Part shown: positions 1,735-11,267 of the stretch, in pieces
Numbering within the stretch: the first letter of the stretch is position 1
Layout of the letters: each line of letters opens with the position of its first letter
NCBI RefSeq assembly: GCF_002753895.1
Contig: NZ_NJER01000001.1
Location: 1,550,910 to 1,614,909 of the forward strand
Reading direction: 5' to 3'
Source of the DNA: Halobacteriovorax sp. JY17
Lineage (GTDB): Bacteria > Bdellovibrionota > Bacteriovoracia > Bacteriovoracales > Bacteriovoracaceae
Length of the DNA stretch: 64,000 bases
Notes under the pieces: model-generated
What the model was told of the DNA's origin: nothing
The model's database searches: none
Seen by the model: the letters and a program-made list of their open reading frames with translations, nothing else
Position numbers and translations under genes: made by a program

Positions 1735-2553
1735 CTAAGCTCCGATTCTCTTAACTGTTTCTTTTAGAATTTTTGTGAATTTCTCCATGACTCTAAGAGC
1801 TTCATCTTTAATATCTTCATGTTTTAATTCAACATTCTCGATTCCTGAGGCCATATTTGTCACGCAACTTACTCCACAGACTTTCATTCCAATGTGATTG
1901 GCAGCAATACACTCAGGAACTGTACTCATTCCAACAACGTCAGCTCCAAGAATTCTTAGCATTCTAACTTCTGCAGGTGTTTCATAAGTTGGTCCAAGAA
2001 CTCCGGCATAGATTCCTGTCTGCATCGTGTAGCCAAGATCCGTAGCGGATGCTTGAATAATTTCTCGAAGTTCTGGATGGTAGGCCTTAGTCATATCTGG
2101 AAAGCGAGGACCCATTTCTTTAATATTTGGCCCAAGAAGAGGATTCTTTCCTGTCATGTTAATATGATCTTCAATGATAACGAGATCACCTGATTTGTAA
2201 TTTGTATTAATACCACCAGCTGCATTTGTTAAAATAAGAGTATCAACACCTAAAGTAGAAAGAAGTCTTGTTGGAAAAACAACGTCGTCCATGTCAAGGC
2301 CTTCATAAGAGTGGTATCTACCTTGAAGAATGGCAACTTCTGTATTTTCTATTTTTCCTAGGATTAATTGTCCAGCATGTCCCTCAACAGTAGTTTTATG
2401 AAAGAAAGGAATGTCATCGTAAGAGATAATTGTTTTATCTTCAATTTGGTTAACAAAATCGCCAAGCCCAGAACCTAAAATGATTCCAACTTTTGGACTA
2501 CATGGCTTTATTTTCTTTATATGAGCAGCGGCTGCTCCTAGCTTTTCGTACAT
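1735..2553 (-). CDS. punA: Purine nucleoside phosphorylase (trimeric PNP family)
   Basis: It splits purine (deoxy)nucleosides with phosphate into base and (deoxy)ribose-1-phosphate. Family signatures are GIILGSGLGDF near the N-terminus (phosphate loop), EGHAGQL, LQGRYHSYEG, TNAAGGIN and GPTYETPAEVRML, all typical of the trimeric PNP class. I chose ATG at 2553 (272 residues) because GGAAGAG lies just upstream; a TTG twelve bases earlier would add four residues. The gene follows deoA with a gap of only 14 bp, so both are probably one salvage operon, with nupC nearby supplying nucleosides. A weak G-rich dyad at 1708-1725 lies downstream. Confidence 0.9.
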   Translation of the reverse strand: MYEKLGAAAAHIKKIKPCSPKVGIILGSGLGDFVNQIEDKTIISYDDIPFFHKTTVEGHAGQLILGKIENTEVAILQGRYHSYEGLDMDDVVFPTRLLSTLGVDTLILTNAAGGINTNYKSGDLVIIEDHINMTGKNPLLGPNIKEMGPRFPDMTKAYHPELREIIQASATDLGYTMQTGIYAGVLGPTYETPAEVRMLRILGADVVGMSTVPECIAANHIGMKVCGVSCVTNMASGIENVELKHEDIKDEALRVMEKFTKILKETVKRIGA

Positions 2554-8791: not shown

Positions 8792-8896
8792 AAATACCTA
8801 ATAACAGATAGTTATGGGCTATAAAGAAAGAGCTTCGGCCATTTACCTTTCCCCCCTTTTTTGTTATCTTTTCGAAACATTTTTGCGTAAATCTCG

Positions 8897-8942
8897 CTCC
8901 ATCATTAACTAGGTGGGGCCATAAATTGTCCGGGAGGTTTTT
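8897..8942 (+). promoter_or_regulatory. Possible S6:S18-responsive leader before the ribosomal operon
   Basis: CTCCATC (8897-8903) can pair with GGTGGGG (8912-8918), allowing G-U pairs, over an eight-base loop. A CCG (8930-8932) directly abuts the GGGAGG ribosome site (8932-8937). In several bacteria the rpsF leader is bound by the S6:S18 complex through a conserved CCG. Whether this leader adopts that fold is untested. Confidence 0.25.
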
Positions 8943-9566
8943 ATGATTTATGAATTGGCCGTAGTGGCTAAGACGGAAACTACTGAGGAGCAAAGAGCAG
9001 CTCTTCAAACTATGGTTACTGATGTTGTTGGAGCAAATGCTGGTGAAGTATTAATCTCTGATGACTGGGGTAACAAGCATTTTGCACAGGCTACATCTAA
9101 GGGTGTTAGAACTGGTCATTACCTATACTTTGTATACTCTGGTAATGGTGCAACAAACCTTGAAATCGAAAGACGTCTAAGAATTAACGAGACTATCATT
9201 AAAAAGATGATCGTTAAAATCGGTGATACTGCTGAAGAAGGTGTTGAGTTCGCGAAGAAATTCAAGTCTCCATTTTCTAAGAAGTATAACGGAAGTATTC
9301 TTGATGAAAACGATTCTGACAGTGATCTTGAAAAAGACAAGAAGAGATTCTCTAGAAGAAAGTCTTGTTGGTTTGCTTCAAACAACATCACTCCAGATTG
9401 GAAAGACCCAAAAACTTATGGTTGGCTAATTAACGAATTTGGAAAGATTAATCCAGGTCGTGTTTCAGGTATTAGCCGTAAAGCTCACAGACTTGCAGAT
9501 ACTGCAATTAAGAGAGCGAGAAACATGGGTGTTGTAAGTCATATTACAAATACTTTAGCTGAGTAA
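8943..9566 (+). CDS. rpsF-rpsR: Fused ribosomal proteins S6 and S18
   Basis: One uninterrupted 207-codon frame encodes two small-subunit proteins. Residues 1-95 are S6 (MIYELAVVAK start, GHYLYFVYSGNG strand, LEIERRLRINETIIKKMIVK). Residues 96-125 form a charged, Asp/Ser/Lys-rich linker (NDSDSDLEKDKK). Residues 126-207 are S18 (SCWFASNNITPDWKDPKTYGWL, then GKINPGRVSGISRKAHRLADTAIKRARNMG). S6 and S18 normally bind each other on the 30S platform, so a covalent pair is structurally reasonable. No separate rpsR lies nearby. GGGAGG precedes the ATG by five bases. DUF2232, rplI and dnaB follow in the order seen where rpsF and rpsR are separate genes. Identification of both halves is secure; proteolytic splitting after translation cannot be excluded. 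Confidence 0.92.
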   Translation: MIYELAVVAKTETTEEQRAALQTMVTDVVGANAGEVLISDDWGNKHFAQATSKGVRTGHYLYFVYSGNGATNLEIERRLRINETIIKKMIVKIGDTAEEGVEFAKKFKSPFSKKYNGSILDENDSDSDLEKDKKRFSRRKSCWFASNNITPDWKDPKTYGWLINEFGKINPGRVSGISRKAHRLADTAIKRARNMGVVSHITNTLAE

Positions 9567-9586: not shown

Positions 9587-10645
9587 ATGACTAACCAAAA
9601 CGACGATAACAATTACTTAAAAACTTCAAAGGGTTCTGATTCAGAAGCTCGTGAGAAGATTTTTGGTCAATTGACTAATGGGAAGCTCGTATTTCTAGCT
9701 GTCATCTCATTACTATTGTCTGTTGCGGGACCATTATTTGTTTTTGCACCTGTTCCAATGAGTATTGCATTCTTGCTTTACGGAAAAGGAAAGACTTGGT
9801 CACTTATTGTGGCGACAATAGCTATTATCATTGGAGTGTCTTTTGCCTCTGCTGGTCTTGCTAGTGTTCGTATGATGAGTTCATACTTTCTGGTTTCTTC
9901 CATTGTGGCATTTGTAACGGCGCGAGTAGTTTGGAAAAAGGAAAACCCTGTTTCTGGATTTCTTAAAAATGGTTTTTCAATGTTTGCAATTATTGCATTG
10001 ATTTTCGGTACGCTTGTCCTTGTTTCTGGAAAATCTCCAATGGATATTTTCACAGAGGGAGTTATTCTCGTAGGGGATAATTTAAAGACAAGTAAAGGTT
10101 TTGATAATTTTTTAGCTGAAGGCGGAGAGCAAGCCGAGGCCATGAAATATATTATTGAAAAACCAAAAGAAGTAGCTCTCTTAGTTTTAAAGATGACTTT
10201 CGCAGTAGCGTTTGTTGGAACATTTTTCATCCTTTGGATTTCGCAATTTATGCTTATGAGAAACTCTCTCATTTGGCGTCAATTTCACGATTATCCTTAT
10301 AAGATGAAAGACCTTGTTCGCTTTAAAGTTCCAGAGCAATTTGTTTACGTTTTAATCGTTGCGATGGCACTAATTCCTCTTGGAACTTATGTGCTTGAGA
10401 ATGAATTAATGGAAACAATTGGTCTGAATATGGTCTACTCTTTAGGTATTTTCTATTTCTTTCAAGGTTTTGGAATTATCTCAGACGCACTAGATGCTTA
10501 TGGCGTTTTTGGATTTTTTAGAAGTGTTATCGTTATTCTTTCAATATTTATGGGCTATCAAGCGGTAGCAATATTGGGAGTGGCGAACATTTGGATTGAT
10601 TTTAGAAAGTTCTTAAAAAAAAAGAATAAAATGAAGGAGATATAA
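9587..10645 (+). CDS. DUF2232 multi-pass membrane protein
   Basis: The 352-residue protein has an acidic, polar N-terminus of about 30 residues and then seven or eight hydrophobic segments. It fits the DUF2232 (YybS-like) family, which is often encoded between the S18 and L9 genes in deltaproteobacteria-like genomes. No biochemical function is established. It lies 20 bp after the S6-S18 gene and one base before rplI, so all three are surely co-transcribed. Substrate-specific (ECF-type) transporter components share the general topology, but assigning transport here would be speculation. Confidence 0.75.
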   Translation: MTNQNDDNNYLKTSKGSDSEAREKIFGQLTNGKLVFLAVISLLLSVAGPLFVFAPVPMSIAFLLYGKGKTWSLIVATIAIIIGVSFASAGLASVRMMSSYFLVSSIVAFVTARVVWKKENPVSGFLKNGFSMFAIIALIFGTLVLVSGKSPMDIFTEGVILVGDNLKTSKGFDNFLAEGGEQAEAMKYIIEKPKEVALLVLKMTFAVAFVGTFFILWISQFMLMRNSLIWRQFHDYPYKMKDLVRFKVPEQFVYVLIVAMALIPLGTYVLENELMETIGLNMVYSLGIFYFFQGFGIISDALDAYGVFGFFRSVIVILSIFMGYQAVAILGVANIWIDFRKFLKKKNKMKEI

Positions 10646-10646
10646 T

Positions 10647-11267
10647 ATGAAGGTGATCTTAACAGAAAGAGTAAAAACTCTTGGAAATGTTGGTGAGATC
10701 GTAAATGTTTCTCAAGGTTATGCAAGAAACTATTTAATTCCAAATAGAGTTGCTGTACTTGCTGATGAAACAAATACAAAACATCTTAACCACCAACAAA
10801 AAGTTCTTGCAACAAAGATGGAAGGACAAAAAGCAACAGCAGTAGCTGGAGCTAAGAAAGTAGAAGGAACAACTCTTGAATTCGTAAGAAGAGTAGCTGG
10901 TTCTGGAAAACTTTTTGGTACAGTTTCTAACTTAGAAATTGCTAAAGAATTAGAAGCTCAAGGTATCGAAATTGAAAAGAGAATGATTGTAGTTCCTAAC
11001 CCAATCAAAGCTCTTGGAACTTTTGATGTTATTGCTAAATTATTTGACGGTGTTGAAGCAAACTTCAAAGTAAATGTTACTCTTGATCCTGCTCAAGCTG
11101 AAGAAATGAAGAAGAAGCAAGAAGATGCTGATAAGAAAAAAGCAGCAGCTCTTGAAGCAGCAGCTCTTGCAAAAGAAAATGGCGAAGAAGAAGTTACTGA
11201 CGAAGTAAAAGAACTTACTGAAGAAGAAAAACTTAAAGAAGAAGCCAACAGAATCTTAAGATCTTAA
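10647..11267 (+). CDS. rplI: 50S ribosomal protein L9 with long charged C-terminal tail
   Basis: L9 binds 23S rRNA near the L1 stalk and supports reading-frame maintenance. Residues 1-150 carry the family hallmarks: MKVILTERVKTLGNVGEIVNVSQGYARNYLIP, a long connecting helix and the second RNA-binding domain. Typical L9 stops near 150 residues; here about 55 further residues rich in Lys, Glu and Ala form an extension. AAGGAGATAT gives a strong ribosome site. The codon use in the tail is repetitive but compositionally like the rest. A perfect hairpin follows the gene. Confidence 0.93.
   Translation: MKVILTERVKTLGNVGEIVNVSQGYARNYLIPNRVAVLADETNTKHLNHQQKVLATKMEGQKATAVAGAKKVEGTTLEFVRRVAGSGKLFGTVSNLEIAKELEAQGIEIEKRMIVVPNPIKALGTFDVIAKLFDGVEANFKVNVTLDPAQAEEMKKKQEDADKKKAAALEAAALAKENGEEEVTDEVKELTEEEKLKEEANRILRS

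Follow-up and report, generated by a model that had tools for sequence, protein, structure and literature searches.

A ribosomal protein S6-S18 fusion gene in nearly a whole class of mostly predatory bacteria

Introduction

Ribosomal proteins S6 (bS6) and S18 (bS18) meet early in the life of a ribosome. In E. coli, the two form a heterodimer before binding the complex of rRNA and S15 (PMC4647458). The locus described here raises the question of what happens when both are encoded by one gene. It lies in a 64,000-nucleotide stretch of the genome of Halobacteriovorax sp. JY17 (the window; positions below are those of the window), where S6 and S18 share a single open reading frame. Is this frame real, does it give one protein or two, and how widely is it shared? 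We consider it likely that the gene makes one bS6-bS18 polypeptide, which would act as a cis-paired unit of the 30S platform and repress itself through its leader.

Results

Two complete domains in one frame

The frame runs from 8943 to 9566 on the plus strand and has 207 codons. Its translation holds a complete S6 followed by a complete S18, and the gene and its conserved neighbours are laid out as follows.

8943..9230, plus strand: S6 (bS6) domain, residues 1-96, with its own ATG (PF01250; AlphaFold2 mean pLDDT 92-96 here)
9231..9365, plus strand: C-terminal extension of S6 and charged linker, residues 97-141 (start-codon scan, pN/pS, pLDDT)
9366..9566, plus strand: S18 (bS18) domain, residues 142-207, and stop codon (PF01084, TIGR00165); zinc-ribbon cysteines 2 and 3 are lost (cysteine table)
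9587..10645, plus strand: gene for a DUF2232 membrane protein, a conserved neighbour (PF09991, E 4.3e-12)
10647..11267, plus strand: rplI (L9), a conserved neighbour (PF03948 and PF01281)

Both domains are full-length members of their families. Pfam Ribosomal_S6 (PF01250) matches residues 3-92 with an E-value of 2.9e-18 (66.3 bits against a cut-off of 27) and covers model positions 2-90 of 90, and Ribosomal_S18 (PF01084) matches residues 147-196 with an E-value of 6.9e-14 (52.1 bits against a cut-off of 21), covering model positions 1-50 of 52. The NCBIfam equivalogs agree: TIGR00166 for S6 at residues 1-92 (45.6 bits, cut-off 42.9) and TIGR00165 for S18 at residues 136-202 (47.4 bits, cut-off 38.75). 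These NCBIfam domains are about 44 residues apart, and there are 31 residues from the end of the S6 extension, a YKSP-like motif, to the S18 cysteine. The preliminary description of this DNA, which had seen complete S6 and S18 joined through a charged linker without an internal stop, is borne out by these matches.

It had also proposed that adjacent genes fused, with no duplication involved, and that DUF2232 and rplI keep their usual order. Both genes do come after the fused gene. The order rpsF-rpsR-DUF2232-rplI is kept in the unfused relatives from the same class and in several outgroups, and searches with both families found no second S18 or S6 and hence no separate intact rpsR or rpsF in the window's own genome (3.47 Mb in 5 contigs, rated 100% complete); the other S6 row was a 13-bit non-match. 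Further downstream, rplI is followed by dnaB, assigned by its sequence. Upstream of the fused gene are genes for RNase E/G, a response-regulator-like protein and a Lon-domain protein; the last of these, a stand-alone Lon substrate-binding-domain protein (PF02190, 8105-8791), is encoded directly upstream of the ribosomal operon. At L125-L135 and in other Bdellovibrio-like outgroups, profiles built from the class did not detect S6, DUF2232 or rplI beside S18. The operon has probably been dispersed in these outgroups, in contrast to the class and to some other outgroups.

Probably one polypeptide

When species of the window's genus are compared, the linker has about 9-20 synonymous differences per 25-26 synonymous sites and 4-17 non-synonymous differences per about 110 non-synonymous sites. 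The resulting pN/pS of about 0.1-0.2 is well below 1, which tells us that the linker is translated and selected as protein. AlphaFold2, run with 90 fused sequences, folds both domains (mean pLDDT 87, pTM 0.81). The S6 domain is well ordered, residues 97-106 are predicted as a helix, and the linker is uncertain at residues 121-140 (pLDDT about 57-62). Foldseek matched the S6 part of the model to ribosomal S6 chains. By sequence, the two parts matched chains of bS6 and bS18 in solved structures; no chain among the matches listed spanned both.

A chain that is translated whole could still be a precursor. If a protease cut the acidic, poorly ordered linker, S6 and S18 would be separate in the ribosome. 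The pLDDT near 60 at residues 121-140 is consistent with this, and the linker, whose length and sequence vary among genera, could serve as a loose protease substrate. However, inspection of 114 linkers revealed no conserved cleavage motif, and the unfused relatives show that two separate genes would serve equally well, with no cleavage needed. We regard a cleaved precursor as unlikely.

Another way to obtain free S18 would be to translate it alone from an internal start, beside the fused protein. Many genomes of clade B (one of the fused groups discussed below) do have an in-frame ATG seven codons ahead of the S18 cysteine. Against this, 46 of the 99 fused genomes that we fetched, including that of the window, lack any ATG, GTG or TTG in the stretch from the S6 extension to the S18 cysteine, and the best internal Shine-Dalgarno matches in the remaining ones are mostly 3-4 bases, compared with mostly 5-7 at true starts. 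Such a double output is very improbable.

For a single bS6-bS18 polypeptide, then, the window gene offers complete, single-copy domains in one frame, selection at the protein level and no internal start for S18. RimK and RimI were considered as a hint of unmodified free ends, and turned out to be uninformative: three RimK-family genes score above the cut-off and RimI below it.

Distribution across the class

The class sample comprised 129 genomes. S18 was detectable in 118 of them, including all 73 with at least 90% completeness and at most 5% contamination. Comparing the locus among relatives, as the preliminary description had suggested, we found S6 and S18 in one frame of about 200-250 codons in 110 of the 118. 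In five genomes (G020, G058, G059, G060 and G064), rpsF and rpsR are separate genes that lie side by side. Two more, G110 and G120, look fused and are at contig ends; in G110 the S18 frame opens with S6 tail and linker sequence. In G071 (L052 ~2299-2301, minus strand), S6 and a fused-type S18 are in the same frame with a single in-frame TAA between them. This S18 has no ATG, GTG or TTG start available; the TAA could reflect recoding, a fusion that has broken, or a mistake in the draft genome.

About 40 of the 46 genera have the fusion. The same gene is present in Bacteriovoracaceae UBA3083 (90% identity), in an isolate of Halobacteriovorax marinus (78%) and in the isolate Bacteriovorax sp. DB6_IX (57%); the loci at 90% and 78% identity (L034 and L035) come from separately sequenced relatives. 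A sequencing or assembly error that hides a stop between two genes can be dismissed because the same frame is found in these relatives, in 110 genomes of the class and in an isolate genome. Nothing in the window points to such an error; one other genome, G071, does have a stop at the corresponding place.

The fusion is fixed in nearly the whole of this class of mostly predatory bacteria. Our survey covered the phylum to which the class belongs. In the rest of the phylum, S18 frames have at most 155 codons among the matches listed, and there was no fused locus among the outside loci that we read. One draft genome of the class, G074, has a second, better-scoring S6 (contig C102:487-744, 96.7 bits, frame 189) beside its fused gene, perhaps through contamination.

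S18 contacts and the zinc ribbon

In E. coli S18, K60 and R63 contact C719/C720 of the rRNA, and K24 is a residue at the S6 interface (PMC4647458). By eye, these correspond to K190, R193 and K154 of the fused protein, which are invariant in 90 fused proteins.

The zinc ribbon has fared differently. S18 keeps the first cysteine and lacks the second and third in 99 of 99 fetched fused genomes, and thus does not have the four ligands (CxxC...C..H) of the zinc-binding C+ form of bS18. The unfused members of the class keep all four (5 of 5). Bdellovibrio-like outgroups, which are unfused, also lack the two cysteines, so loss of the zinc ribbon does not need fusion.

One fusion or several

The unfused lineages fall between two fused groups in trees built from the operon neighbours, from rpoB-rpoC and from the two sets combined. 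AU tests of a single fusion gave p values of 0.073, 0.18 and 0.058. A single fusion is therefore disfavoured by these trees, with AU p of 0.06-0.18 that stays above rejection, and they cannot decide between one fusion and several. If they are right, there would have been several, because otherwise two cysteines must have been regained, or the operon transferred; if they err at the weak nodes, there was one. Tentatively, and with some leaning against it, we entertain the idea that the class saw two to four independent fusions of S6 with S18 (clade A, clade B, G057 and G109), each time with loss of the zinc ribbon. Were this true, the link to S6 would seem to stand in for zinc in stabilising S18.

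A leader that resembles the rpsF leader

The E. coli S6:S18 heterodimer represses translation of rpsF by way of a leader structure, of which the Shine-Dalgarno sequence and a pair of conserved cytosines are part (PMC4647458). A candidate counterpart is found just upstream of the fused gene.

8893..8937, plus strand: rpsF-leader-like cis-regulatory RNA, candidate (covariation in 87 leaders)
8893-8895, plus strand: CTC
8896-8903 and 8912-8919, plus strand: hairpin arms
8930-8931, plus strand: conserved CC
8932-8937, plus strand: Shine-Dalgarno sequence

Nearly all loci of the class have the same series upstream of the fused gene: a hairpin with a CTCGC-like motif at its start is followed by a conserved CC and, after that, by the Shine-Dalgarno sequence. 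In 87 leaders, the arms of the same leader pair over 6.8 bp on average. When the 5' arms were exchanged among leaders and the same 3'-arm optimisation was applied, the mean was 4.26 bp, with a maximum of 4.63 in 500 trials. All pair types are present at stem positions 5-8. The CTC is complementary to the GAG (8934-8936) of the Shine-Dalgarno sequence; both are conserved and nearly invariant, and hence give no covariation signal. RNAalifold returned no pairs from the MAFFT alignment of the leaders, in which the 3' arms are misaligned.

A covarying hairpin and a conserved CC just ahead of rpsF are the architecture of the rpsF leader, and the window leader resembles it, as either a divergent relative or a look-alike. 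No Rfam leader family matched the window's operon or leader, and RF02893 was not matched even at an E-value of 10; a control search with the E. coli leader gave 110 bits for this family. By analogy with E. coli, this hairpin probably lets the fused protein repress its own translation.

Discussion

The mechanism that we propose begins with the S6 and S18 domains pairing in cis. As a pre-formed unit, the fused S6:S18 would then dock on the 30S platform at 16S helices 22-23, following S15, so that a bimolecular association would become intramolecular and the 1:1 ratio would be fixed. The same protein would bind the rpsF-leader-like hairpin, whose structure can include the Shine-Dalgarno sequence, and repress its own translation. 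The preliminary description had connected the fusion with co-regulation of the operon and with changed stoichiometry and assembly. The covarying leader hairpin supports the former; the latter effects we infer.

It had also known of no standard bacterium with this arrangement. This stands to the extent that we found no description of an S6-S18 fusion in a literature search that covered few subscription papers. The fusion is not confined to this organism, given the genera that share it. Databases may well contain S6-S18 entries that annotation software has labelled as fusions. The parts are known, and what appears to be new is their covalent arrangement, almost class-wide.

These bacteria provide a natural experiment on a classic step of assembly, the pairing of S6 and S18 ahead of rRNA binding, and a naturally tethered ribosome part that can be tested for effects on ribosome assembly. 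For feedback control, the fused protein would measure the S6:S18 pair directly, because the known repressor of the operon is that pair. The fusion is also a marker for the clade. Phylogenies of ribosomal proteins and gene counts are affected by it where they assume that rpsF and rpsR are separate.

Comparison with known systems

One close known system is that of separate bS6 (rpsF) and bS18 (rpsR) with an rpsF leader, known from E. coli and B. subtilis (PMC4647458). The two proteins are the same, the rplI neighbour is shared with E. coli, and the leader likewise has a hairpin beside the Shine-Dalgarno sequence and a CC that is conserved. The window differs in that one polypeptide takes the place of two, and in that its leader does not match the Rfam family on which the E. 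coli leader scores so highly.

With respect to the C+ and C- forms of bS18, in which the zinc ribbon is present or lost (PMC9976891), the fused S18 is a C- form. In this class, C- coincides with fusion; the sole C- gene that is not in one frame is that of G071, which is of the fused type with one stop.

The ubiquitin-ribosomal protein fusions of eukaryotes (PMC10296562) are likewise cases of a ribosomal protein made within a larger chain. Their partner, however, is ubiquitin and is cut off, whereas both halves here are ribosomal proteins in mutual contact.
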